Shown one piece after another: positions 25,375-39,221 of a DNA stretch of 39,221 nucleotides. Positions within the stretch are counted from its first letter, which is position 1. The number at the start of each line of letters is the position of its first letter. The notes beneath the pieces were generated by a model. It was not told the DNA's origin, ran no database searches, and saw nothing but the letters and a program-made list of their open reading frames with translations. The translations under genes were made by a program, and so were the position numbers. Source of the DNA: Candidatus Merdibacter merdigallinarum (lineage in GTDB: Bacteria > Bacillota_I > Bacilli_A > Erysipelotrichales > Erysipelotrichaceae); assembly GCA_019118705.1 (NCBI GenBank), contig DWYK01000055.1, forward strand, positions 1 through 39,221, written 5' to 3'.

Positions 25375-26463
25375 TCAGCGCAGCGTGCGAGCGATCTGCT
25401 GCATACGATCTCCTGCATATTCCAGCAGTTCGCGATACCCGCAGTAGCGATCGTCGTAGTAGGCGCTGTTGAGACGTTTGCAGTTGCGATGGCACATGCC
25501 TTCAAACGGACAGTCACCGCACGCTGCACAGCTGCGGCGCGGCTCCTTGAGAAAGCCTTTCATCGTCTCACAGGTCGCCAGCTCCAGCAGGGTATTTTCC
25601 CTGATGTTGCCGCAGCGGTATTGATCCAGCACGTAGAAATCGCACGGGTAGACGTCACCGTTGCTCTCCACGACGAACTGCGGCGCACAATGCCCCAGCA
25701 TCCCGCACTGCTGCGGAGGATAGCCGGCGAACATCGGGATCACATTGTCAAAGAGCGTCACGCTGATGACATTGCCCTTCACGTACTCCCGATACCACAG
25801 GTCGAAGAACACTTTATAGAAAGAGGCAAACTGTCTGGGATGCAACGAAAATTCGCTCTCCTGTTCGTCCAGACCGGCCAGACACGGAATGAACTGGATG
25901 TACTTGAGATCATGCTTCTGATAAAAGGAAAACAGCTTCTGCGGATGTGCACTGACATAAGAGCTCAGCACCGTCAGGATGTTGAAATCCACCTTTGCGC
26001 GCTTCAGCAGTTCCACCGACCGCATCACCCGCTTGAAGGTCCCCTCATATGCCGCATCCTTGCGCAGATGATCGTGCAGCGCGGCATAGCCGTCCAGAGA
26101 CACGCCGATCAGAAACTGATGCTGCTGAAACAGCGCCACCCATTCCTCATCCAGCAGGGTCGCATTGGTCTGCAGGGCATAGTGGATCGTCTGTCGCTGC
26201 TTATGTGCATCGACATAAGATGTAAATGCCCGAAAGTAATCGATGCCGGCGACCGTCGGCTCTCCGCCCTGAAAGGCGAAGGTGATGTCGGCTTCCGCAT
26301 CCAGGTCCAGCGCACGCTCGATCAGCGCCTGCATCGTGTCTTCCTGCATGATCCCGTGCGAGCGCACTTCCCGATGATCTGCCACGTCATAATAGAAACA
26401 GTAACGGCAGCGCATGTTGCACAGTGACGATGCCGGTTTGATCAAAAAACTGATGTATTTCAT
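25375..26463 (-). CDS. Anaerobic sulfatase-maturating radical SAM enzyme (anSME)
   Basis: Radical SAM enzyme that oxidises the active-site Cys or Ser of sulfatases to C-alpha-formylglycine without oxygen. The SAM cluster motif CNMRCRYC (Cys15, Cys19, Cys22) is followed by FYYD; FQGGEPTVAGIDYFR, ALQTNATLL and GVSLDGYAALHDHLR are typical. The C-terminal SPASM region has the auxiliary-cluster Cys set (CGMLGHC, YPCDFY, CAACGDCPFEGMCHRNC). 362 aa is normal. It lies behind sulfatase 26568-28067, whose CMPAR motif is its expected substrate. Confidence 0.94.
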   Translation of the reverse strand: MKYISFLIKPASSLCNMRCRYCFYYDVADHREVRSHGIMQEDTMQALIERALDLDAEADITFAFQGGEPTVAGIDYFRAFTSYVDAHKQRQTIHYALQTNATLLDEEWVALFQQHQFLIGVSLDGYAALHDHLRKDAAYEGTFKRVMRSVELLKRAKVDFNILTVLSSYVSAHPQKLFSFYQKHDLKYIQFIPCLAGLDEQESEFSLHPRQFASFYKVFFDLWYREYVKGNVISVTLFDNVIPMFAGYPPQQCGMLGHCAPQFVVESNGDVYPCDFYVLDQYRCGNIRENTLLELATCETMKGFLKEPRRSCAACGDCPFEGMCHRNCKRLNSAYYDDRYCGYRELLEYAGDRMQQIARTLR

Positions 26464-26528
26464 ATCGATGTTCTCCTCCGCTTCATTGTATCACAGACCG
26501 CTCTCTCCACGAAGTCCTGTTATGCAGA

Positions 26529-26555
26529 AAGAGGAGATCACTGTGATCCCCTCTG
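26529..26555 (-). terminator. Hairpin between sulfatase and anSME genes
   Basis: Minus-strand stem GAGGGGATCAC against GTGATCTCCTC with one mismatch (26531-26553), followed by TTTCTG. The short T tract suggests partial termination, so anSME could be read through at lower level. Confidence 0.45.
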
Positions 26556-26567
26556 GTCCATATCAGC

Positions 26568-28067
26568 CTATTGGATGCCCAGGCGTTCCTTCTGTTCCTG
26601 CGGTGCATCATAAGCGTCCAGCGCCTGTGAGAGCAGCTCGATGTAGCGTGCTTCCAGTTCACTGTCCACACCGGCCAGATTCTTCGTCTGTCCATAGTCC
26701 GCACAGATGTCGAACAGCTTGGTCTCCAGCACTTCTTTGAGCGGCTCATCGCTCTGATCGATGATGCCCGGCTTCGTGATCGGAATGCGGAACAGCGGAT
26801 ACTGTGTCCGCTTGAAGTAACGTCCCATCTCGATCTTCTCCGGACATTCGACGCCCAGCACGCGGCGGATGGTCGTCGGGAATGCCGTATATTCATAACA
26901 TGGCTGATTCTCCGGCTTTGGTGCACGCAGATACGTGTGATGACCATCGCTGAGGTTGACCGCCATTCCATGATAACCGAAGATCGCATAGTCCTTGGTC
27001 TTCGCCTGCGGATCCTGTGCCAGCGGCTTCAGCGAAACGCCCTGTACGCTGTCCGGGATCTCGATGCCCATGAAATCGAGGATCGTCGGCATCATGTCGA
27101 TGTTCTGCGTGATCTGCTGCACATGCTCGCCCGCACGCTCGCCATGCGGGAATTTGATGATGAGCGGCAGATGCGCCAGTTCATTGTAAAGATGCATGTA
27201 GTTCTTTCCCAGATAGTCGCGCTCTCCGAGGAAATAACCGTGGTCGGTCGTCATGACGACCATCGTGTCTTCATACATATCCAGCTCTTTGAGCTTGTTG
27301 ATCAGCGTACCGAACCAGTGATCGGTCATCGTCACCAGTGCGGCATAACGACGCTGCACATAATCGACCGCGCTTTCTGGCACACCGGCCTCCGATACGC
27401 GCTTATACTGCGGGATCTCATAGTAATCACGGTCCAGTCCGGTGTTGCCTCCGTAAAGATCCATATACTTGTCCGGTACATCGAACGGTTCATGTGGATC
27501 GAATGCCTCGACCATCAGAAAGAAGTCATCATCTCCCTTGTTGTCTTCCAGCCACTCACAGGCGGACGCAAACGTCTTCGGAGAAGGCATGTCCTCCTCA
27601 TTCGGCCACTGCGTCCGGTTGAGCTGATACTGACGGCGCACACGCCCGTAGAACGTCTCCGGCATGTTGTCCGGTTCGTCGATGCGGGATACCCAAGGGT
27701 CTCCCTCCTGTCCGCGGTGATAATCCCACGTATTGAACTGCTGTAAGTAGCCTTCTCCGCCGGTACGCATGTAATGGCAGTGATCGGTCGTGATGTGCGT
27801 ATAGACATCATGATCTCTTAAGACTTTCGGCAGCGTGATGTCAAACGGTTCGATCGGTCCCCAGGAACGCTCCAGAAAATTCAGGCGTCCGGTCAGGATG
27901 TCACGACGTGCCGGCATGCAGGGCGCACTGCCGATCCAGTGCTGATCGAATACCGTCGCTTCCTTCGCAAACGCATCGATATTCGGTGTCTTTACGATCG
28001 TTTCCGGGTTATAGCAGGACAGCGCTTCACGTCGCAGCGTATCCATCAAAACTAAAACAGTTCTCAT
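26568..28067 (-). CDS. Cys-type formylglycine sulfatase, cytoplasmic
   Basis: S1-family sulfatase of 499 aa. The fGly motif is SAPCMPARRDILTGR with Cys50, Pro52, Arg54. Metal ligands are in VLVLMDT (Asp9) and TTDHGYFLGER. There is no signal peptide, since the mature fold begins at residue 1, so it should act in the cytoplasm on imported, probably phosphorylated or cleaved sulfated sugars. AGGAG precedes the ATG at 28067. A -10 box TATGAT lies at 28166-28171, with the recurrent ATTTTCCATATT motif about 50 bases further upstream. The exact sulfate ester cannot be assigned by eye. Confidence 0.93.
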   Translation of the reverse strand: MRTVLVLMDTLRREALSCYNPETIVKTPNIDAFAKEATVFDQHWIGSAPCMPARRDILTGRLNFLERSWGPIEPFDITLPKVLRDHDVYTHITTDHCHYMRTGGEGYLQQFNTWDYHRGQEGDPWVSRIDEPDNMPETFYGRVRRQYQLNRTQWPNEEDMPSPKTFASACEWLEDNKGDDDFFLMVEAFDPHEPFDVPDKYMDLYGGNTGLDRDYYEIPQYKRVSEAGVPESAVDYVQRRYAALVTMTDHWFGTLINKLKELDMYEDTMVVMTTDHGYFLGERDYLGKNYMHLYNELAHLPLIIKFPHGERAGEHVQQITQNIDMMPTILDFMGIEIPDSVQGVSLKPLAQDPQAKTKDYAIFGYHGMAVNLSDGHHTYLRAPKPENQPCYEYTAFPTTIRRVLGVECPEKIEMGRYFKRTQYPLFRIPITKPGIIDQSDEPLKEVLETKLFDICADYGQTKNLAGVDSELEARYIELLSQALDAYDAPQEQKERLGIQ

Positions 28068-28165
28068 AATAAGTGCCTTGCTCCTTTCTCCATCGGATCA
28101 CCTGCCGCCTGCGCACATGCGTGCAAATTACTCCTTCCAGGCTTCCGTGACCCTCCTGCACTTTT

Positions 28166-28234
28166 ATCATAGCATTTCTCAAATCGGTCATCTACGCTGG
28201 TAAATGAAATACCATGCTGATTTTCCATATTTAA
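28166..28234 (-). promoter_or_regulatory. Promoter and candidate activator site of the first sulfatase gene
   Basis: Minus-strand -10 TATGAT (28166-28171) without a good -35. The plus-strand reading ATTTTCCATATTTAA (28220-28234) lies about 50-65 bases upstream of the -10, a normal place for an AraC-type activator. Confidence 0.45.
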
Positions 28235-28299
28235 GTCATATTTTACATATTATTCTCTACAGGCTTCCAAATCAGCGATGTTTTCTATATCCATCGGAA

Positions 28300-28335
28300 A
28301 CAAAGGACCTGCCATCCAACCGACAGCAGGTCTTT
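28300..28335 (-). terminator. Terminator of the PTS operon
   Basis: Minus-strand stem AAAGACCTGC / GCAGGTCCTTT (28302-28312, 28326-28335) with one mismatch and tail TTTGTTT, about 17 bases after the EIID stop. Confidence 0.65.
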
Positions 28336-28352
28336 CGTTCGCTCTTTTGTTT

Positions 28353-29180
28353 TTATGCAAAGATATTGACACCCGTGTAATGACCGATCGCCGCAAATAC
28401 CAGTGCGAATACGATCATACCGATGATGATGGACGCGCTGTTCTTGCCCTGTCCCTTCTTCAGCAGCTTGTAGCAGACGAAGGTCAGAACTACCGGCAGG
28501 ATGCAAGGCATGACCTTGTTCATCTGATCCTGGATGATCAGCGGCTCACCTTCGCTGAAGGCAAACTGCAGCGCCGTAGACAGTTTGACCGTCTGCGGGA
28601 TCAGGCAGCCGACAACGACGACGCCCAGTACGTTCGCCATGTTGCCCAGGCGGTCGAACAGCGCCATACCGCCGCTCTGTACGACTTCCAGACCCTTCGT
28701 GTATCCCAGATGCAGTCCGAAGTACTTCAATGGCCAGTACAGCAGGTTGATCAGCAGGAACATGACCAGCGGTCCGACCAGGCTGCCGTCATTGATGCAC
28801 ATGGATGCACCGATGGAACCGGCGATCGGATACCAGGTCAGGTTCAGCATCGAGTCACCGAGTCCGGCGAACGGTCCCATCAGGGACGTCTTGATCGCAC
28901 GGCAGGTATCTTTCTGATCTTCATCAGTGGACTCCTCCAGTGCTGCCTGGATGCCCAGGATGAACGGAATGGCCAGCGGATGCGTATTGAAATACTCCAG
29001 ATAACGCTGCATTGCGTGTACTCTTTCTTCTTTCGGTCGATCTTTGTACAGTTCCTCCAGTACCGGAGAGAAGCAGTACGTTAAGCTCAGGGACTGCATA
29101 CGCTCGTAGTTATGCGCAAACTGACATCCCTGTGTACGAAGCAATACCTTGTTCAGGGCTTTATTTGAAATCTTTCCCAT
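28353..29180 (-). CDS. Mannose-family PTS EIID component
   Basis: Membrane subunit that with EIIC forms the sugar channel. Family hallmarks are QGCQFAHNYERMQSLSLTYCFSPVLEELY near the N-terminus, MEETTDEDQ-like region here as LEESTDEDQKDTCRAIKTSLMGPFAGLGDS, and a C-terminal stretch of three hydrophobic segments. 275 aa is normal. The ATG at 29180 overlaps the EIIC stop by one base. Last gene of the IIA-IIB-IIC-IID operon, followed by a terminator. Confidence 0.95.
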   Translation of the reverse strand: MGKISNKALNKVLLRTQGCQFAHNYERMQSLSLTYCFSPVLEELYKDRPKEERVHAMQRYLEYFNTHPLAIPFILGIQAALEESTDEDQKDTCRAIKTSLMGPFAGLGDSMLNLTWYPIAGSIGASMCINDGSLVGPLVMFLLINLLYWPLKYFGLHLGYTKGLEVVQSGGMALFDRLGNMANVLGVVVVGCLIPQTVKLSTALQFAFSEGEPLIIQDQMNKVMPCILPVVLTFVCYKLLKKGQGKNSASIIIGMIVFALVFAAIGHYTGVNIFA

Positions 29181-29998
29181 TATAGATCGTACTCTCCTTC
29201 CTCTTCAGAACCAGCCGTGGCAGCGGCAGGCGCGGCGGCGGCAGCTTTCTTCTGTCCTTCCACGATCACATCGTAGAGTCCGGCAAGTGCGGCAGCGATC
29301 ATCGCGCATCCCAGCGTCGGAACGCCCATGTATGCATTCAGAACGAAACCGATCACCAGGAAGATCCACATATCTTTCTTCATCATCATCGTCAGCAACA
29401 TCGCCAGACCGACGGCAGGCATCATGCCACCGGCAGTAGAGAAGCCGCTCAGTACCCAAGGCACGTCGTTCTGCAGGAATCCCATGATCGTATCGATTAC
29501 GGCGGAACCGGCGCCGACGGCGATGAAGGTCGGGACGGCACGAGACAGGAAGAACATCAGCGCACCGATCCAGAAATACTTGTTGATGCTGCTGAACTTG
29601 CCGCTGTCAGCCGCCTTGTCCGCAGCGTGCACCAGCGATACGTTGGTCGTCATGACCAGGATGTTCAGCTGCTGAACGAGCGTCGCGGTCGGGATACCGA
29701 TCGCAACGGCCAACGAAATGGCACTTTCCGTGCTGCCCCCGGACATGATGCCCAGAGAAGCACCTACGATCGTACCGGAGATGACATCCGGCGGTACATA
29801 AGCTCCGATGTTGTTTACGCCCAGCCACATCATTTCCATCGTTGCACCGATCATGATGGCTGTCGTCATGTCGCCTAAGATGATACCTACTCCTACGGAT
29901 GCGAGCAGTGGTTTACGGAAACCTAAATGCGGTCCGAACTGGTCCCATGCACAGAGACCTGCCCACAACGCTATGAGTAGCGCCTGAAAGATTTGCAT
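29180..29998 (-). CDS. Mannose-family PTS EIIC component
   Basis: Polytopic sugar-translocating subunit of 272 aa. It starts MQIFQALLIALWAGLCAWDQ and has the family sequence GDMTTAIMIGATMEMMWLGVNNIGAYVPPD, followed by further membrane segments such as AGGMMPAVGLAMLL. The C-terminus ends in an unusual Ala-rich then Glu-rich cytoplasmic tail (AAAAAPAAATAGSEEEGEYDL region). AGGAGG precedes the ATG at 29998. Within this family GalNAc, GalN, mannose, sorbose and GAG-disaccharide systems are similar; the tagatose-pathway neighbours favour a galacto-configured sugar. Confidence 0.95.
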   Translation of the reverse strand: MQIFQALLIALWAGLCAWDQFGPHLGFRKPLLASVGVGIILGDMTTAIMIGATMEMMWLGVNNIGAYVPPDVISGTIVGASLGIMSGGSTESAISLAVAIGIPTATLVQQLNILVMTTNVSLVHAADKAADSGKFSSINKYFWIGALMFFLSRAVPTFIAVGAGSAVIDTIMGFLQNDVPWVLSGFSTAGGMMPAVGLAMLLTMMMKKDMWIFLVIGFVLNAYMGVPTLGCAMIAAALAGLYDVIVEGQKKAAAAAPAAATAGSEEEGEYDL

Positions 29999-30059
29999 AC
30001 TTTCTTCCTCCTTCTTTTGAATGTATATAGCATCGCTGTGCGATTACTATCCGCGTTTG

Positions 30060-30539
30060 TTACTGAAAGTTCTTCAGCAGTTCCGCTACCGGCTCTTTGC
30101 TGTCGCGGGTCGTCGTCTGCATCCAGCACTCTACGCCCATGCCGATCAGTTCCTCGAAGGCTTCCTTTTCTTCCTTCGTCACCGACATGTTCTTGTGCAG
30201 ACGCGTACGCTGATCGTTAAAACGCATACCGCTGACATTCAGATAGTTATAATCCAGACCGTTCTTCTTCAGCGTCAATGCGTCGATCGGGTTGGTGAAC
30301 AGCACCATCGTCGCCTTTTTGAGCTGCGTCTTCTTCAGAACGTCGATGAATTTCTCCACCCCGAACACGGTGACCTTGATGTTTGGCGCCGCCAGACCGG
30401 CAACGGACTTCTGCACCGGATCGTTGGCGACCGCATCGCTGACGATGATCGCCGACTCGATCCCATAGTCCGGGATCCACGTCGTCGCTACCTGTCCATG
30501 AATCAAACGGTCATCAATATCCACTAATTTCAATGCCAT
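30060..30539 (-). CDS. Mannose-family PTS EIIB component
   Basis: Cytoplasmic phosphotransfer subunit of 159 aa. The phosphorylated His14 lies in DDRLIHGQVATTW, the family signature; LFTNPIDALTLKKNGLDYNYLNVSGMRF is the usual central part. It takes phosphate from EIIA and gives it to the incoming sugar at position 6. AGGAGG precedes the ATG at 30539. Encoded between IIA and IIC. Confidence 0.95.
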   Translation of the reverse strand: MALKLVDIDDRLIHGQVATTWIPDYGIESAIIVSDAVANDPVQKSVAGLAAPNIKVTVFGVEKFIDVLKKTQLKKATMVLFTNPIDALTLKKNGLDYNYLNVSGMRFNDQRTRLHKNMSVTKEEKEAFEELIGMGVECWMQTTTRDSKEPVAELLKNFQ

Positions 30540-30560
30540 AATCTGTCTCCTCCTTTTCTT

Positions 30561-30989
30561 TTACAGATCCATATCTTCTTCATCATCACCGGCCAGCTGG
30601 ACCTCGATCGGGCAGACCGACTGCTGATGAACCGACATCACATGTTCTTTGACCTCTTCTGCGCTGATCTCGCGCGACAGCAGCAGATCGATCAGAATCG
30701 GAAGATTCAGACCGGTAAAGCCGATCATGTTCATCCCTTTTAACATACAGCGGGAGATTGCGTTGAATGGTGATCCCCCGTAAATGTCACAGAGCGCAAC
30801 GACGACATCGCAACGCGAGGAAAGGTCGGCATATGCATCCGCCACTTCTTTTTCCAGGTCATCCAGTGATTTTTCCACGGTGAGCGCCAGCGCATGAACG
30901 TCTTTCTGTTCCCCGGCCAGCATCTCCGCACTGCCGAGTGCCGCTTTTGCGAATTCTCCATGACTTGCCAGAATAATACCAATACTCAT
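30561..30989 (-). CDS. Mannose-family PTS EIIA component
   Basis: First phosphocarrier of the permease, phosphorylated by HPr on His10 in ILASHGEFAKAAL. The segment CDIYGGSPFNAISRC matches the family motif (GGSPFN). The ATG at 30989 has AGGAGG 6 bases upstream; 142 aa is normal. First gene of the operon. Two cre-like sites lie upstream, so CcpA repression by preferred sugars is likely. Confidence 0.94.
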   Translation of the reverse strand: MSIGIILASHGEFAKAALGSAEMLAGEQKDVHALALTVEKSLDDLEKEVADAYADLSSRCDVVVALCDIYGGSPFNAISRCMLKGMNMIGFTGLNLPILIDLLLSREISAEEVKEHVMSVHQQSVCPIEVQLAGDDEEDMDL

Positions 30990-31020
30990 TTGCAACCTCC
31001 TGTTTTCTTTGTGCGTAAAT

Positions 31021-31035
31021 ATGAAAGCGCTTCTA
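31021..31035. promoter_or_regulatory. cre-like site 1 (CcpA)
   Basis: ATGAAAGCGCTTCTA; the opposite strand reads ATAGAAGCGCTTTCA, one mismatch from WTGNAANCGNWNNCA. It overlaps the presumed -10/start region of the PTS operon, a repressing position. Confidence 0.7.
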
Positions 31036-31143
31036 TACTTTCGGCATGGTTATCGTAACATCCCGAAAATGCAGATTCAATAAGCGTTCCGGATTCTTCC
31101 CCACTTTTTTACATAATTTGATTAAATAATTCATATTTTTTAT

Positions 31144-31158
31144 TGGGAAGCGCTTCCA
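31144..31158. promoter_or_regulatory. cre-like site 2 (CcpA)
   Basis: TGGGAAGCGCTTCCA, one mismatch from the cre consensus with a perfect GGAAGCGCTTCC palindromic core; about 110 bases upstream of the presumed PTS start site. Confidence 0.65.
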
Positions 31159-31427
31159 CGATGGAATAAACCATAATTCTCTTCACATAATTTTGCTGAA
31201 TTTTATTTGCTATCGGTCTCAAATATCCCGCAGATCGGTAAAAAAAATTGGAGAATCGAGCCAATTTCTTCTTATTTCTTCATCCGATCCGCCAAATAGG
31301 TGAAATATTCCATATTTTTTGTGATTTCCGTCGATTCAGCGTGATTTTACTAATTTCATCCCCAGATCCGGAGAGTTCTCCCTCATCCGCATTGTATGCA
31401 AAGGCCGATGCCATGATGCGTACGGAC

Positions 31428-31468
31428 AAAAAAAGGCAGCCGTCGTCACTTGGAACAAACGGCCTGCC
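31428..31468 (-). terminator. Terminator of the second AraC-type regulator gene
   Basis: Minus-strand stem GGCAGGCCGT / ACGGCTGCC (31459-31468, 31435-31443) with seven T at 31428-31434, directly behind the stop. Confidence 0.75.
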
Positions 31469-31470
31469 GA

Positions 31471-33102
31471 TCAGATACGCTTGCGGTATTCCCGAGGACT
31501 GAGATGGTAGTACTTCTTGAAGACTTTGTTAAAATACAGCTGATCACTGATGCCTACCATCGCCGCCACGTCTTTGATCTTGCGGGTGCGATCATGCATC
31601 AGCTCTTCCGCCTTCGCCATCTTGCGCTCGTTGACATACTCGATCACACTGTGTCCGACCTCGCTTTTGAACAGCCGGCTGGCGTGGGTCACGCTGAGCC
31701 CGGAGGCAGAAGCGACCATCTCCAGTGTCAGCTTCTCCGCAATGTGTTCATCGATATAGTCCAGCATCGCCGACACCTTGTGGTGATAGCGGCTGATGTG
31801 GTGCTCGCGCACCCAGTCGATCAGCGTCTTGAAGATCTTCTCCAGCTCCAACTGCAGAAACTGGATGCTCTCTGCCTCGTTGATGCCTTCATAGAGGATA
31901 TCAAACGGATACTGTTCGCTGATGCCATGCTCATAGATGACCTTCTTGGTGTCGTGCAGGATCGAGACGAAATAGCCCTTGACGTCGGTAAAGTCGATGA
32001 ACCGTTCGATCATCTGTCCGATCGCCTTGGAGTAAGAACCTTTCACCTTGTCAAAGTTCTGTTCCATGATGCCCTGGGCGATCTCATTGCCGCAGGGGAA
32101 AGAACTGTATTGCAAACGCTGGATCACACGCGCATCCTCTGCAAACTCCACACAGCGATCGCCGTCATAGAACTTGTGGCTCATGTGGTATTCCATCACC
32201 TGCTGATATCCTCCCAGGAAGTCATCGATGCCCTGCTGCTCTGTCGACACCGTGACCGAGAAATCGTAGGTCAGCCGTTCCCCGATCCCGTCGATGATCT
32301 GATGTGCCAGCGCTTCATAACGCTCACGCGGCAGTGGTGGCAGGACGATGACGCCGGAGTGTTTCTTGTTGAAGAGGATGCAGGCGCCTCGAATCCCCTG
32401 CAGGTATTGTGTGATCAGCCGTTTGATCTGCAGCTGGATCTCATCGCGCATGGAGACCTTGTTGCGAAACATGTCGATGAACTCATCGCTGTTCATCCAG
32501 AACGGCTTGTCGTAACGCTTCAGCGAACGATTGAAGTTGCGGATGTTGTCCTGGCGAAAATACAGCAGTCGATAGCGCCCCTGCAGCAGATAGAGCTCCG
32601 GGCGGCTGAGGATCTCCTTGAGCAGATCATAGTCGACCTTCTGTTCGTCACGGATCAGGCCCAGGATCTTTTCCAGCATCTCTTCCCAGCTCTCCTGCAG
32701 ACTGGTCGCCTCTTTCTTCGCCAGATCCTCCCGGATGCGATCCAGCAGCGCCGTCAGCGTCGAATAGCGCAGCCGCGATTTCAGCAGATAATCATACGCA
32801 CCGACGACGAACGCCTCCCGCACGGAATCATAATCTTCATGCGCGGAGATGACGACAACGATGCATTCCGGTCCCAGATGACGCAGCTTCTTGATCAGCG
32901 AGACGCCGTTACCGCCCTGCAGGTCCAGTGCGGTGAAGATCACATCGTACTTATATTCACCATACAGCGCCAGCGCATCCGATTCGCTGTCCGCGACCGA
33001 AGCGATCTGAAAACCGGATTCCTCCCAGGGGATCATATTCTTATAAACATGGATCATCTGCTGCTGTTTCTCCACCAGCAGCACACGGTATAACGCACTC
33101 AT
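31471..33102 (-). CDS. YesN-like AraC-type regulator with degenerate receiver domain
   Basis: 543-residue regulator, paralogous to the one at 19671-21230. The receiver-like N-terminus (1-120) keeps the overall pattern, including the late Lys in YLLKSRL, but aligns Ala58 (VIFTALDLQGG) where the phosphoacceptor Asp should be, and the acidic pair is reduced to VEKQ. The central region (about 130-430) is unrecognised. The C-terminus has two AraC helix-turn-helix units (LTLEMVASASGLSVTHASRLFKSEVG and VAAMVGISDQLYFNKVFKKYYHLSPREYRKR). The start is ATG 33102, with AGGAGGG 7 bases upstream. It lies between the PTS operon and sulfatase 2 and probably controls both, in a way that does not need Asp phosphorylation. 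Confidence 0.88.
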   Translation of the reverse strand: MSALYRVLLVEKQQQMIHVYKNMIPWEESGFQIASVADSESDALALYGEYKYDVIFTALDLQGGNGVSLIKKLRHLGPECIVVVISAHEDYDSVREAFVVGAYDYLLKSRLRYSTLTALLDRIREDLAKKEATSLQESWEEMLEKILGLIRDEQKVDYDLLKEILSRPELYLLQGRYRLLYFRQDNIRNFNRSLKRYDKPFWMNSDEFIDMFRNKVSMRDEIQLQIKRLITQYLQGIRGACILFNKKHSGVIVLPPLPRERYEALAHQIIDGIGERLTYDFSVTVSTEQQGIDDFLGGYQQVMEYHMSHKFYDGDRCVEFAEDARVIQRLQYSSFPCGNEIAQGIMEQNFDKVKGSYSKAIGQMIERFIDFTDVKGYFVSILHDTKKVIYEHGISEQYPFDILYEGINEAESIQFLQLELEKIFKTLIDWVREHHISRYHHKVSAMLDYIDEHIAEKLTLEMVASASGLSVTHASRLFKSEVGHSVIEYVNERKMAKAEELMHDRTRKIKDVAAMVGISDQLYFNKVFKKYYHLSPREYRKRI

Positions 33103-33254
33103 GAATTGCCCTCCTTCCCTAAAATATGCGAAATCAAACCCCTTTTTCACCTGTTCTGATTACATTATACTAAAAAGAACTAAAATGAACAGCCCGTTTT
33201 TCGTGTATTGACTGAATAATCCATAAAATATTTTCACTTTTCGCTGATTTGCAT

Positions 33255-33282
33255 CATTTCTCCATATACCGTTTGTTATAAT
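33255..33282 (+). promoter_or_regulatory. Promoter of the second sulfatase with candidate activator site
   Basis: -10 TATAAT (33277-33282) without a recognisable -35; the motif ATTTCTCCATATACC (33255-33269) covers the -35 position. A second related element, AATCCATAAAATATTTTC, lies at 33218-33235. Confidence 0.5.
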
Positions 33283-33315
33283 GGTTTCAGAAATGCTTAG
33301 AGGAGGAATTTCCCG

Positions 33316-34773
33316 ATGAAACGACCGAATATCTTGCTGGTCATGTGTGATCAGCTTCGCGGGGACTGTCTTTCATTTGACGGACATCCGGATGTCAAGA
33401 CCCCTTATCTGGATACGCTGGCTGCAGACAGTACCTATTTTGAAAACGCCTACTCTGCCTGCCCCAGCTGCATTCCGGCCCGTGCCGGACTGCTGACCGG
33501 ACAGGCGCCTTCCAGCCATGGCCGTGTCGGTTATCAGGATGGCATCGACTGGGAATATGACCATTATCTGGCACAGGAACTGGCCGATCACGGCTATCAG
33601 ACGGCCTGTGTCGGCAAGATGCACGTCCATCCGCCACGGCTGCAGTGCGGCTTTCAGATGATCCGGCTCCACGATGGCTACATCGGCCATTACCGCAAGG
33701 CGAACATCCCTTCCTGGATGAACCAGAATGTATCGGATGACTATATGCATTATCTGCGGGATCATCTGGGGTCCTATGCAGATGTCAACGGTTCCGGTGT
33801 AGAGAACAATTCCTGGATCACCCATCCATGGATCTATGAAGAACGCTATCATCCGACCAACTGGGTCGTCGATGAGAGCATCCGCTTTCTGGAGACGCGC
33901 GATCGCACGAAGCCGTTCTTCCTCATGACGAGCTTTGTCCGTCCGCACCCGCCGTTTGACGCCCCGAAATCGTACTTTGACCTGTACGTCAACAAGCAGC
34001 TGCACGAACCGGCCATGGGAGATTGGGTGGATCCCTCCCTGTGTGAGCGGGACGGCATGATCTTAGACAGCGTGCACGGCTGTCGGGATGCAGAGCTGCG
34101 CCATCAGGCGATGGCCGGCTACTATGCCTGCATCACCCATGTCGATCATCAGTTCGGCCGGCTGATCACCGCGCTGGAAAATGATGAGAGCTATCATGAT
34201 ACGATCATCATCTTTACGGCCGACCACGGCGAGATGCTCTTTGACCATCAGCTGTTCCGCAAGGTGCTGCCATATGAGGGAAGCACGCGCATCCCGATGA
34301 TCATCCACGTTGGCAAGAACATCCGCAAGTGCCTGCCGCATCGCAGCGAGAGCGTCGTCGAGCTCATGGACGTCATGCCGACCGTGCTGGATCTGTGCGA
34401 CATCCAGATCCCGGACAGCGTCGACGGTGCTTCTCTGAAGCAGGAGCTGTTTGAGGCAAAAAGAATCGAGCGGGAATATGTGCACGGTGAGCACAGCCGC
34501 GACAAGGAACAGTCCAACCAGTATATCGTCACCGAAACAGACAAGTACATCTGGTTTACCCAGACGAACATCGAACAGTATTTTGATCTGAAGCAGGATC
34601 CGAAAGAGGAACACGACCGCATCGATGACCCTGCCTGCCAGGAGCGTATCGCCCATCTGCGCTCGCTGCTCATCCAGGAGCTGGAGGGACGCGAAGAAGG
34701 ATATGTGCAGGATGGAAAGCTGGTGGCGGGCCAGCGTCCGATCAGCCGGCTGCAGCACCCGCTTCACCGATAA
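33316..34773 (+). CDS. Cys-type formylglycine sulfatase, cytoplasmic
   Basis: S1-family sulfatase of 485 aa. The fGly motif is CPSCIPARAGLLTGQ (Cys52, Pro54, Arg56); metal ligands are seen in LLVMCDQLRGD (Asp12) and FTADHGEMLFDH. TSFVRPHPPFDAP resembles arylsulfatase/choline-sulfatase-like enzymes, but the specificity is not assignable by eye. No signal peptide is present, so it is cytoplasmic and dependent on the anSME encoded 7 kb away. AGGAGG precedes the ATG at 33316. It is divergent from the pseudo-receiver regulator and convergent with the lyase remnant. Confidence 0.93.
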   Translation: MKRPNILLVMCDQLRGDCLSFDGHPDVKTPYLDTLAADSTYFENAYSACPSCIPARAGLLTGQAPSSHGRVGYQDGIDWEYDHYLAQELADHGYQTACVGKMHVHPPRLQCGFQMIRLHDGYIGHYRKANIPSWMNQNVSDDYMHYLRDHLGSYADVNGSGVENNSWITHPWIYEERYHPTNWVVDESIRFLETRDRTKPFFLMTSFVRPHPPFDAPKSYFDLYVNKQLHEPAMGDWVDPSLCERDGMILDSVHGCRDAELRHQAMAGYYACITHVDHQFGRLITALENDESYHDTIIIFTADHGEMLFDHQLFRKVLPYEGSTRIPMIIHVGKNIRKCLPHRSESVVELMDVMPTVLDLCDIQIPDSVDGASLKQELFEAKRIEREYVHGEHSRDKEQSNQYIVTETDKYIWFTQTNIEQYFDLKQDPKEEHDRIDDPACQERIAHLRSLLIQELEGREEGYVQDGKLVAGQRPISRLQHPLHR

Positions 34774-37011
34774 CGAAAACGACGGTTGCCCGTTTATGGG
34801 AACCGCCGTTTTTCTTTTGGTTTTTCTTTCTGATCTGAAAGCAGATACGCAGCCGCTTTGGCCAGGACAGACGCTCCCATAGCAGTTTTTGCAGGTGCAC
34901 GACCTCTTCCTTCGCCCAGGAAAGCGATGCCGCTGCAGGGGGCGTATGTCCAAACGCCGCCTGCTCCACGATCGCAGCAGCGTCTCGATCTGTTTGCGAT
35001 CCAGCGCGGGCAGCATCTGACAGAGCATCTGCGCAAAGGCGGGGTCGCTTGCCGGTGTCGTTTCCCTGCGAAGAGCGGACAGCATCACTGCGACGGCATC
35101 CATCTGCGCGGCCAGAGAACGCGATGCATCGCGGCGGTGGGTCCGATGAAGCGCGTACACGATACCAAGCACGGCCACCAGCACCGCTCCCAGGACAGGC
35201 AGATGCACATCCGGCACAGAAAGAGCAGAAAAGAGCGGCTGTGAAGGAAGCGAGCGGGCAGCGGAAGGCGTCACCTCGATGGGGATCCAGCCATATTCCG
35301 GCGTATAGACCTCCGTCCAGGCATGCTGATCCGATTCCTGCAACACAGCGACATAGGTGTCGCTTTCCCGGTGAAAATCGCTGACCTCGGCCCGATACCC
35401 GTTCACATAGCGCGCCGGGATCCCGCACAGCCGGAACATGAGCGTTGCGGCAGAGGCAAAATGCTGGCAATAGCCGCGATGCCGTTCAAATAGAAAAGTC
35501 TCGACCAGATCCCCCTCACCACCCATATACCCCGGGGCCAGCGTATACTGCGCATGTGCGGACAGCTGTGTCTGAACAAAGGAGATCGCTTCCTCCAGCG
35601 CGATCGTCACTTCGCGAAGTTCCTCCTGGGTAAAGGCATTGCCTTTGTCCATCAGCGTGCGTGCATCTTCCAGCGCGCCTTCCAGGGCGGCGCGCAGGGT
35701 CTCGTATTGTTCCGGGGTCGCAAAGGCTTCTGAGCTGTCATAATTCGCCAGCAGCTCCTCTGCCTGTGCCAGGTTCTTCACGCGGATATAGTTCGCATAG
35801 GCAAGCAGCGAGAAGTCCTCGCTCTGTTCTTCATCCGCAAACTTCTGTTCAGCGATCGGTTTCAGAGAAGAATAGATGGCTTCCTTCGTTTCTTCACTGG
35901 CCTCCGTATCAGCATACTGCAGCAGCACGCCCATCGTCTGCATGCCCATGGTATCGCCCTGCTGGGCTTTTCGGGATACCGCACGTCCCCGCACGCTGTC
36001 CACCATGTTTCCGCCATAGGACAAAAACGGCAGATAGTGATTCAGCAATGTGTTCTCATAGAACTGAATGTCTTCCTCATCGATGACGTAGTCGGTATAG
36101 CTGAGCAGGATGATGCAGTTGGTCAGCTCATTGAGCAGCACATACCCGTAGGAACCATTGTATGGAATGTTTCCATGCCGGATAAAGCTGCCATCCGGGT
36201 AATAACCATCGCCGGAAGAAGAGTAGGCAAACAGCGGTGCCATGCATTCCTTCGCATGTGCCAGCCGCTCCTCGTTGCCGTCGAGCGCCGCACGCTTGAT
36301 GACGATGGCGACCTTGTCGATCAGGTTAGCACCGGTCTCCTTCAGAGAAGAGTTCAGACGATAATCCGCTTTCGGCACGAAGCGGTCGATCGTCGCTGTC
36401 ACATCTGCGATCGTCTCCGCATCCAGATCGTCATAGAGCAGGATGGCAATATCCACCATCGCCTTCGGTGCGCCGATCTCCCAGTCCCACCAGTTGGAAG
36501 ACCCCTTTACGGTATCCGGGCCATATTTCTTATCCAGTACGAAACGAAGTCCTTCCAGTACCTTCGTCTTAGCGGTCTCATCCTGATAAAGGGAGGACAT
36601 CGGCTCATTGATCTGAATGGCGATCATCTTCAGACGATCCAGCGTCTCGGTCGCTTTCGCCCCCATCTCCGCATCATTATAGGCCTGATCGTCCCACAGG
36701 TGATCACCGGAGGTCGGCAACATCGTATCCAGGTAGTGCTGCGCCTTCGCATCCAGCTGTTCGATGACCGTTTGAAGATCACCGTCTTCGCTCAGGCCTT
36801 CCGTATCGCCCAGCAGTTCCGTTCGCCAGTATTCCCGCACCGCTTCATATGTCGTATCATCCAAAGTCTGTGCGTGATCCTTCTGCTTCTGCACATCGTC
36901 GCCATGATCGTTCGCCAGCACCTGCAGCACGCTGCCCGGCAACATCTGCAGCGCCAGAGACATGCTCAGAAACGCAAGTAATTGTTTTTGTCCTTTCATA
37001 TGCTGATTCAT
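34742..37011 (-). pseudogene. Chimeric remnant: PL8 polysaccharide lyase alpha domain + FIVAR-like + membrane transglutaminase tail, frameshifted
   Basis: Starting at ATG 37011 there is a signal peptide (about 5-34), then an alpha/alpha-toroid typical of PL8 hyaluronate/chondroitin lyases (about 60-390): SSNWWDWEIGAPKAM, and catalytic Asn229 (TGANLIDK), His279 (FIRHG) and Tyr288, with the 50- and 9-residue spacing of the pneumococcal enzyme. The beta-sandwich domains that should follow are missing. Instead come FIVAR-like helices (about 425-477), then a transglutaminase core with Cys515 (RGYCQHFASA), His563 (HAWTEVY) and GWIPIEVTPSA, and a membrane segment (about 603-622). Near 34975 the natural tail shifts frame (IVEQAAFG, then WAKEEVVHLQKLLWERL). 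Unshifted, the frame runs on to 34063 antisense to the sulfatase, which I consider spurious. PL8 and transglutaminase identities are solid; whether any product works is doubtful. Confidence 0.7.
34782..34818 (+). terminator. Terminator of the second sulfatase gene
   Basis: Stem ACGGTTGCCC against GGGAACCG with a bulge (34782-34791, 34798-34809), tail TTTTTCTTTT. It may also serve the convergent gene weakly. Confidence 0.7.
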
Positions 37012-37026: not shown

Positions 37027-37041
37027 AGTAAAACGCTTTCA
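37027..37041. promoter_or_regulatory. cre-like site at the lyase gene
   Basis: AGTAAAACGCTTTCA, two mismatches from the cre consensus, with the core AACGCTTTCA intact. It lies between the -10 and the start codon. Confidence 0.5.
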
Positions 37042-37048
37042 CGATTCT

Positions 37049-37077
37049 ATTAAAACATCCTGTATTTTTTCGCTCAA
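37049..37077 (-). promoter_or_regulatory. Promoter of the lyase-fusion gene
   Basis: Minus-strand -35 TTGAGC (37072-37077), 17 bases, -10 TTTAAT (37049-37054). Confidence 0.6.
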
Positions 37078-37236
37078 GCACGGCGATTGGTACAAAACCG
37101 ACATATTCTTCTGAGTTCGTTTTCCTACCAAAACTTTTTGACTTTTCCGTAAATGTCGAATTTATCCATAAAACAAACAATTGTTTTATTAAACCAAACA
37201 TATAAGAACCATATTATCTCTGTATTTTCCATATAC

Positions 37237-37325
37237 ATTGTCGTGCCTTCCTGTATTTCCGCAGATGATGAAGAGGTGTCCCCACCACTTTCCTGACCGA
37301 ACCGCTTTTTATTCGAGTGTTCCCC
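37237..37325 (-). pseudogene. Possible remnant of an AraC-type DNA-binding domain
   Basis: One frame reads VRKVVGTPLHHLRKYRK, resembling the end of the second AraC helix-turn-helix (F-RK-VG-TP-YRK pattern); just upstream another frame gives NKKRFGQ, which would complete the pattern. The frame change and absence of the rest suggest a degraded fragment. The match is short and could be chance. Confidence 0.25.
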
Positions 37326-37336
37326 CGGACAAAACA

Positions 37337-37361
37337 AAGGAGAAGCGAATCACTTCTCCTT
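37337..37361. terminator. Terminator-like hairpin in the intergenic region
   Basis: Stem AAGGAGAAG / CTTCTCCTT with 7-base loop; tail TACATTTTTTA on the plus strand and TGTTTTG on the minus strand. No intact gene obviously uses it, consistent with gene loss here. Confidence 0.5.
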
Positions 37362-37593
37362 ACATTTTTTATGAATGATGCCGATGCTTTCTGGCAAGAA
37401 GCAGACCGAGTCCGATCCATGCGCAGAATGGTAATATCCTGCGCCTGTATACAGTTATCGAGTTTATTCTATATAGAAATTCAGTAAATGAAGAATATTC
37501 ACATTTTTCCATAACTTCTTTGCCCCCCTCCCCATCAGATCAGACAAGATGTGCCCTCCTTCAGATAAATGATTTGTTTCCATACCCATAAAT

Positions 37594-37620
37594 AAAAAAC
37601 CGGCCCTGTTTTGGACCGGT
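37594..37620 (-). terminator. Terminator of the 155-aa membrane protein gene
   Basis: Minus-strand stem ACCGGTCC / GGGCCGGT with one G-T pair and loop AAAACA, followed by TTTTTTATTT, 8 bases beyond the stop. Confidence 0.85.
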
Positions 37621-37627
37621 CCTATGT

Positions 37628-38095
37628 CTATTTGCCGAAATGGTAGATCCTGCGTTTTTTGCGCAGATACTCCTCCACTTCTTCCACTGTCGTATCGGCC
37701 AGCTCCAATGTGCGCTGCCCCTTCTTGCGGGTATAGGTCAGCACGACCTTCCCCTTCTCGTTTTTCACCGATGCCTTGTTGATCTGTTTCCAGGACATCT
37801 TGATCCCTTCGATGTACAGACCGCTTTCCCCGATCCCGCTTCTGCCGATGGCCATCATCAGCGCAAAGATCACCAGGACGAAGGCTGCTCCGAGATCCTC
37901 GGTTCGCTGTCCGTTGTAAAAATAGTTGCCGAAACCGATGACGATCAATACGAGCGCGATCAGCGGTGCCCATTTGGACTTTGGTGAAGCAAATCGCAGA
38001 TTGCTTCTCTGATCGAAGAAGATGTAGATGACATACACCAGCAAAACGACCGAGATCGCGATCAGCAACAGTAACGCTGTGCTAAAACTCTCCAT
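37628..38095 (-). CDS. Small membrane protein of unknown function (155 aa)
   Basis: Hydrophobic segments at about 5-27, 42-60 and 68-85, followed by a soluble C-terminal part (about 90-155) that looks like a small beta domain with a basic end: GESGLYIEGIKMSWKQINKASV, then KVVLTYTRKKGQRTLELADTTVEEVEEYLRKKR. This layout, membrane anchors plus a PH-like domain, is common in DUF-type Gram-positive proteins. GAGGAG precedes the ATG at 38095 and a good terminator follows. No functional link to the sugar genes is evident. Confidence 0.7.
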   Translation of the reverse strand: MESFSTALLLLIAISVVLLVYVIYIFFDQRSNLRFASPKSKWAPLIALVLIVIGFGNYFYNGQRTEDLGAAFVLVIFALMMAIGRSGIGESGLYIEGIKMSWKQINKASVKNEKGKVVLTYTRKKGQRTLELADTTVEEVEEYLRKKRRIYHFGK

Positions 38096-38191: not shown

Positions 38192-38707
38192 TTAATCGTG
38201 GTACTCGCCGCGGTCCCACTTTTCCAGGAACTCATCGAAGAAGTGCTCATCACCGATATAATCCGTACGATCGATCAGCCCGTCGATCTTTTCGATCAAC
38301 GCTTCGTTTTCCTTTGTCGGATGATATTCCGCTCCGAAGTAGGCATCCATGATGTCCTCGATCATTCCGATACCGGATACACGGCCGCCGACACCGATCA
38401 CGTTGCAGTTGAGCTGTTCCTTGGCATATCTGGCCGCACAGACATCACCGACCAGTGCGCAGCGTGCGCCCTTTATCTTCTGTACCGCATTGGTGATGCC
38501 GACGCCGGTACCGCACATGACGACGCCCAGATCGCATTCGCCGCTTACGACTTTCTCCGCTACGCGCTTGCCATAGATCGGATAATGCGTGCGCTCGAAG
38601 TCATAGGTCCCACAGTCCACGACCTCAAAGCCCTTCTTTTCCAAATATTCCTTGATATGATTCTTGATATCTGTGACGATGTGGTCACATCCGATTGCTA
38701 CCTTCAT
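38192..38707 (-). CDS. lacB: Galactose-6-phosphate isomerase subunit LacB
   Basis: With LacA it converts D-galactose-6-phosphate to D-tagatose-6-phosphate. It is an RpiB/LacAB-fold protein of 171 aa, the usual LacB length. [31 protein letters not shown] opens the fold (residues 1-31), [20 protein letters not shown] holds the catalytic segment, and [26 protein letters not shown] completes it. AGGAGG precedes the ATG at 38707. It follows lacA by 19 bases, the order found in streptococcal and staphylococcal lac operons. Confidence 0.94.
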
Positions 38708-38726
38708 CTGCTTCTCCTCCTCTTCA

Positions 38727-39158
38727 TCAGCACATCTTATTCAGCATATCCACACGGATCTGATGACGTCCGCCGGAATACTGTGCCACACAGAAGCGAT
38801 TGGCGATCCGACAGGCAACATCTTCACCGATCACGCCGCTGCCCATCGTAATGACATTGGCATTGTTGTGATCACGTGTCATCTTCGCAGAGTGCTCATC
38901 GTTGAGCTCCGCACAGATGATGTATTTGAACTTGTCCGCCACCATGAACGGTCCCGCACCAAACTCATCGATAATGATGCCTTTGTTTGCCTTGACATCC
39001 TTGAGCACCTCGTTGACGACCTTGATGCTCGCTTCATAGAAATCCACATCTCCCTGAGGAGTGAGATCTTCTACCTCAAAGCTCTGGTCCCGCAGATACT
39101 CAACGATCCTGTTTTTTAATTCCAATCCCTTTTTGTCTGAACTGATTACGATTCTCAT
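38727..39158 (-). CDS. lacA: Galactose-6-phosphate isomerase subunit LacA
   Basis: Partner of LacB in the heteromeric isomerase of the tagatose-6-phosphate pathway. It has 143 aa, close to the usual 142, and begins [32 protein letters not shown]. The segment [19 protein letters not shown] replaces the Cys-containing catalytic loop of LacB, as expected for LacA. It ends in the usual [12 protein letters not shown]-like tail. I chose the ATG at 39158 since the fold begins there; an AGGAGG site lies about 12 bases upstream. The promoter and any further lac genes (lacC, lacD) are beyond or near the window end. Confidence 0.93.
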
Positions 39159-39221
39159 AGCTTCTTTCTGCCTCCTGTATCTTAAAGATATGTCTCCCTT
39201 GGTCAAGGATATGTTAGCATT

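Follow-up and report, generated by a model that had tools for sequence, protein, structure and literature searches.

A PL8 lyase alpha domain joined in frame to a transglutaminase core in one Erysipelotrichaceae draft genome: a candidate for recent fusion through deletion

How does the alpha domain of a PL8 polysaccharide lyase come to share one open reading frame with a transglutaminase core, and what could the resulting protein still do? The locus lies on the minus strand of the window analysed here, a stretch of 39,221 nucleotides that comprises the entire contig C226 of a draft bin (2.24 Mb in 234 contigs, 86% complete, 2.2% contamination). Among named genomes, those most closely related to the bin are Erysipelotrichaceae, with the contigs that carry L025 and L026. 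Translation of the window places the start of the fused frame at 37011 or 36999. The ATG at 37011 opens a signal peptide region at 36910–37011, while the ATG at 36999 matches the start of the intact relatives L025 and L026 in an N-terminal alignment. The signal peptide is followed by the PL8 alpha/alpha-toroid domain (residues 62–414; 35770–36828), a FIVAR-like three-helix bundle (35587–35769), the transglutaminase core (35248–35586) and a single transmembrane helix (35130–35202). No in-frame stop interrupts the 720 codons of the fused gene. Pfam recognises both domains in this one frame, and the in-frame union that had been predicted from the sequence is thus correct.

The alpha domain matches Lyase_8_N with 251.6 bits (E 1e-74; profile positions 1–318 of 323) and is 67–70% identical to the intact PL8 proteins L025 and L026 up to Leu414. 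The PL8 spacing noted originally holds, with 50 residues from Asn229 to His279 and nine from His279 to Tyr288; Arg341/343 and the WW pair are also retained. Foldseek aligns the fused protein with 1rwa, 2e24 and 1egu (E about 1e-14). Solved PL8 enzymes, namely hyaluronate lyase (1f1s/1egu), xanthan lyase (2e24) and chondroitin AC lyase (1rwa), share the alpha/alpha toroid at 22–27% identity, with Asn, His, Tyr and Arg conserved. However, they possess a beta half that completes the cleft, which the fused protein does not. Lyase_8 (the super-sandwich) and Lyase_8_C are unmatched downstream at E 1, as had been anticipated, and both are present in the intact relatives. A search of the whole bin found no PL8 beta domain elsewhere. 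The bin contains no further PL8 alpha domain either, and the organism probably has no PL8 enzyme.

Comparison with the intact relatives places a first join between Leu414 and Ala415 (35769–35770). Directly after Leu414 the alignment jumps to residue 1018 of L025 or residue 1007 of L026. Missing at this point are the beta super-sandwich, Lyase_8_C and the discoidin domain, about 596 codons when measured against L025, and the reading frame is kept. In PL8 lyases, the catalytic cleft is formed by the alpha and beta domains together, and the catalytic tetrad is Tyr-His-Arg-Glu (PMC10697930). L025 and xanthan lyase carry an NSEN motif that the fused protein lacks; the Glu-bearing region that contains it, next to the alpha domain in L025, falls within the lost part. 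We take the tetrad glutamate to be the Glu of this motif just after the alpha domain. By itself, the alpha domain provides only half of the substrate cleft. The fused product would no longer be able to work as a lyase, because both the cleft and the tetrad glutamate either reside in the missing half or require it.

The intact PL8 genes used for comparison come from the same family, L025 with an open frame of 1872 aa and L026 with one of 1766 aa. Both encode Lyase_8_N, the Lyase_8 super-sandwich, Lyase_8_C, F5/8 type C, Big_2 and other domains, with alpha domain, beta-sandwich, discoidin and FIVAR following one another as expected, and the fused gene corresponds to both ends of such an arrangement without the middle. 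A related composition of PL8, discoidin, Big2, FIVAR and LPXTG is known from Enterococcus faecalis HylA, a cell-surface lyase of Firmicutes (PMC11238560). The fusion shares the signal peptide, the alpha domain with its catalytic residues and the FIVAR-like stretch with HylA, L025 and L026, but it lacks their beta-sandwich, Lyase_8_C, discoidin, Big2 and LPXTG-type end, and carries a transglutaminase in their place. In alignments of the alpha domain, the fusion is 73–74% identical to L025 and L026, which are 82% identical to each other. Measured against the more distant L027 and L028, identity is 59–60% for the fusion and 57–59% for L025 and L026. The fused alpha domain shows no acceleration relative to the intact copies, and decay, if any, has therefore only begun. 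L027 (5522–13417) and L028 (6316–14007) are giant PL8 open frames, 2632 and 2564 aa long, in which the alpha domain starts only at about residue 760, after a long N-terminal part.

The original prediction also called for a domain search on the product and described FIVAR-like helices behind the alpha domain. The search recovered Lyase_8_N and Transglut_core but, besides the two missing lyase domains, no FIVAR (PF07554, no match at E 1 in the fused protein). Nevertheless, the helices are homologous to the intact relatives' first FIVAR-like stretch, with 45% identity to L025 1018–1082 and 36% to L026 1007–1070 over about 64 aa. Downstream of this first FIVAR nothing of the lyase remains; from near residue 475 the chain consists of the C-terminal ~40% of a TgpA-like transglutaminase. 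The position of this second join (about residue 475/476, 35587/35586, within 35578–35598) follows from the onset of the TgpA profile and from the structure model, in which the third FIVAR helix continues as the first helix of the transglutaminase core. The AlphaFold model has a mean pLDDT of 77, with the toroid and the transglutaminase core confident; this confidence says nothing about function. The in-frame fusion is confirmed in the sequence, with two joins instead of the single fusion point initially assumed.

Transglut_core matches with 77–82 bits (E 1e-21 at 77 bits; profile positions 16–107 of 108), which is the highest score among the three in the genome and as good as that of intact copies. 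Cys515, His563 and a transmembrane helix C-terminal to the core, aligned with that of TgpA relatives, agree with the predicted Cys/His core and membrane anchor. The third triad position is Glu579, and a Glu also occupies it in the genome's own C133 copy. The residue preceding the catalytic His is Gln, whereas nearly all relatives have Ala and a few have Ser. A TgpA-family profile, for which 22 full TgpA-like proteins were used, scores 186 bits and begins to match at fusion residue 470, corresponding to node 440 of 726. The match from node 440 only means that the front 60% of the transglutaminase, including its N-terminal multi-helix membrane half, is missing. Nearly all relatives of this transglutaminase are open frames of about 680–1080 aa. 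In all seven whose neighbourhood was tested, MoxR lies about 2.5 kb upstream, and DUF58 was detected in four. The sole MoxR of the bin sits at C133, and the fused gene has neither partner; a search of the bin found no second MoxR and no second transglutaminase N-terminal half. In the tree, the fused transglutaminase clusters, at moderate support (85/82), with a branch common to one Erysipelotrichaceae genus and Lachnospiraceae. We rejected a recent duplication of the C133 gene as its origin, given 48% identity and a different tree branch.

Foldseek also matches the fused model to TgpA (6g49/6g4h). The core, the adjacent transmembrane helix and the tail homology are common to the fusion and to TgpA-type proteins, here Pseudomonas aeruginosa TgpA (PDB 6g49) and the C133 copy in its MoxR/DUF58 operon. 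In contrast to these, the fusion is devoid of the N-terminal membrane half and of MoxR/DUF58, has a piece of lyase as its extracellular part and ends in a tail that is probably frameshifted. A periplasmic fragment of TgpA lacking the membrane half has been purified and assayed for transglutaminase activity, albeit with a longer N-terminal part than that left in the fusion (PMC3507681). By analogy, transglutaminase-type activity of the fused product is possible.

Where the gene ends depends on this tail. An end at 34742 had been proposed, and the homologous tail does end there, but in another frame, so that this end presupposes a frameshift; the uninterrupted frame runs on to 34063. The tail homology (from KRLR to the end, frame 2) is weak in profile searches, with 3–6.6 bits, and clearer by eye in the alignment. 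Its occurrence in another frame points to a one-base shift, which probably lies between about 34986 and 34960 in the cytoplasmic tail. We rejected the full 987-aa ORF as a real protein, since its last ~240 codons (34063–34740) are antisense to an intact convergent sulfatase, a neighbour outside the fusion (33316–34773, plus strand; Pfam Sulfatase, 180.6 bits). In the gap between the two genes, a strong hairpin (34776–34813; −22.2 kcal/mol, z −4.9) could serve as a terminator from both sides. Automatic annotation of this locus would yield a spurious 987-aa lyase/transglutaminase, and the organism would be listed as having a PL8 enzyme that is probably absent from it.

The fused gene is surrounded by an island (25375–34773 and 38192–39206 of the window). 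The contig encodes two sulfatases, a radical-SAM/SPASM protein that is probably a sulfatase maturase, a mannose-family PTS (EIIA, B, C and D, with an EIID-AGA component), two AraC-type response regulators and two LacAB/RpiB isomerases. This island appears to be made for sulfated amino-sugar polymers, which would put a piece of lyase in a fitting place. A DNA search of two genomes from the same genus gave no match to the part between 28000 and 39221. Before the fused gene lies an intergenic region of about 600 bp (37030–37628) with hairpins at 37623–37596 and 37361–37337, in which no sigma-70-like promoter was found.

The same fusion was found in none of the 273 genomes of the family, nor in the genome-contig and viral-contig collections or plasmids, and is known from a single draft genome. 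In all relatives the lyase and transglutaminase genes are separate. We consider it fairly probable that the locus records a genuine and recent deletion-born fusion in one Erysipelotrichaceae lineage, which disabled the lyase. Its ancestor would have been a surface PL8 lyase with a signal peptide, alpha toroid, beta-sandwich, discoidin domain, FIVAR, Ig-like and further domains and a C-terminal anchor. One in-frame deletion inside the lyase gene would have removed the beta half and the discoidin domain. Another would have removed the 3' part of the lyase gene together with the 5' part of a second TgpA-like transglutaminase gene, by then positioned downstream of the lyase, and would have joined the C-terminal 40% of that gene in frame. 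Either deletion may be the earlier. The lyase signal peptide would direct export of the product, if made, and the transmembrane helix of the transglutaminase would anchor it. The proposed fusion of two neighbouring genes by one internal deletion therefore survives as regards deletion, but two joins are needed, and the former adjacency is a supposition; the four relatives with intact genes that were compared all lack a transglutaminase next to the lyase.

Could the join have arisen in the assembly instead? The contig would then connect unrelated reads at one or both points, with an intact lyase and transglutaminase hidden in the missing 14% of the genome. The fragmented, slightly contaminated bin and the uniqueness of the fusion speak for such an error, but two in-frame joins within 183 bp would be required. 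Repeat-driven misjoining was rejected: the 21-mers over both joins have no second copy in the bin at up to two mismatches, and that of the second join is unique except for one match with three mismatches. Judged from the relatives, no more than a few codons are common to the two sides of the first join, which is insufficient for a k-mer join; GC3 is equal on both sides (0.67) and in line with the contig, and there are no undetermined bases. We regard misassembly as unlikely and place the event in the genome. Some features agree better with selection for a product than with mere deletion debris: two independent joins 183 bp apart would both keep the frame with a chance of about 1 in 9, both lie near domain boundaries, the core has the top score and in-frame stops are lacking. 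The absence of acceleration and a core score on par with intact copies mean that the fusion is recent or its product still constrained. This lends some weight to a functional new surface protein, in which the toroid would be a glycan-binding module without lyase activity, the FIVAR stretch a spacer, and the membrane-held transglutaminase-like domain would act extracellularly on wall peptides or proteins. The retained Asn, His, Tyr and Arg, the WW pair, the Cys/His dyad and the confident model with its continuous helix across the second join speak for it. On the other hand, it has been seen in just a single draft genome, its tail is probably frameshifted and lacks the proper stop, Gln replaces a near-universal Ala before the catalytic His, and we know of no demonstrated binding role for lone PL8 alpha domains. 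We think such a protein doubtful, and give slightly less credence still to the fuller claim that the architecture is selected and expressed with the inactive toroid as the binding module of an extracellular enzyme. The suggestion that it anchors to peptides while binding GAG is speculative. A functional product would, to our knowledge, be the first case of a PL8 toroid put to use in the absence of the beta half.

Recent fusion by deletion, the reading we prefer, would mean that a polysaccharide-lyase gene has been caught soon after losing its catalytic half, and its two in-frame joins would provide a concrete case of domain fusions arising through deletion. Transglutaminase matches also fall in open frames of about 1017 aa in G093:C11, G120 and G142; the G093 frame holds two such matches and may encode a double transglutaminase domain. 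In other genomes of the family, transglutaminase genes at G165:C79:1098-1451 and G129:C35:142691-142990 contain stops inside the match and are probably decaying TgpA-like genes.
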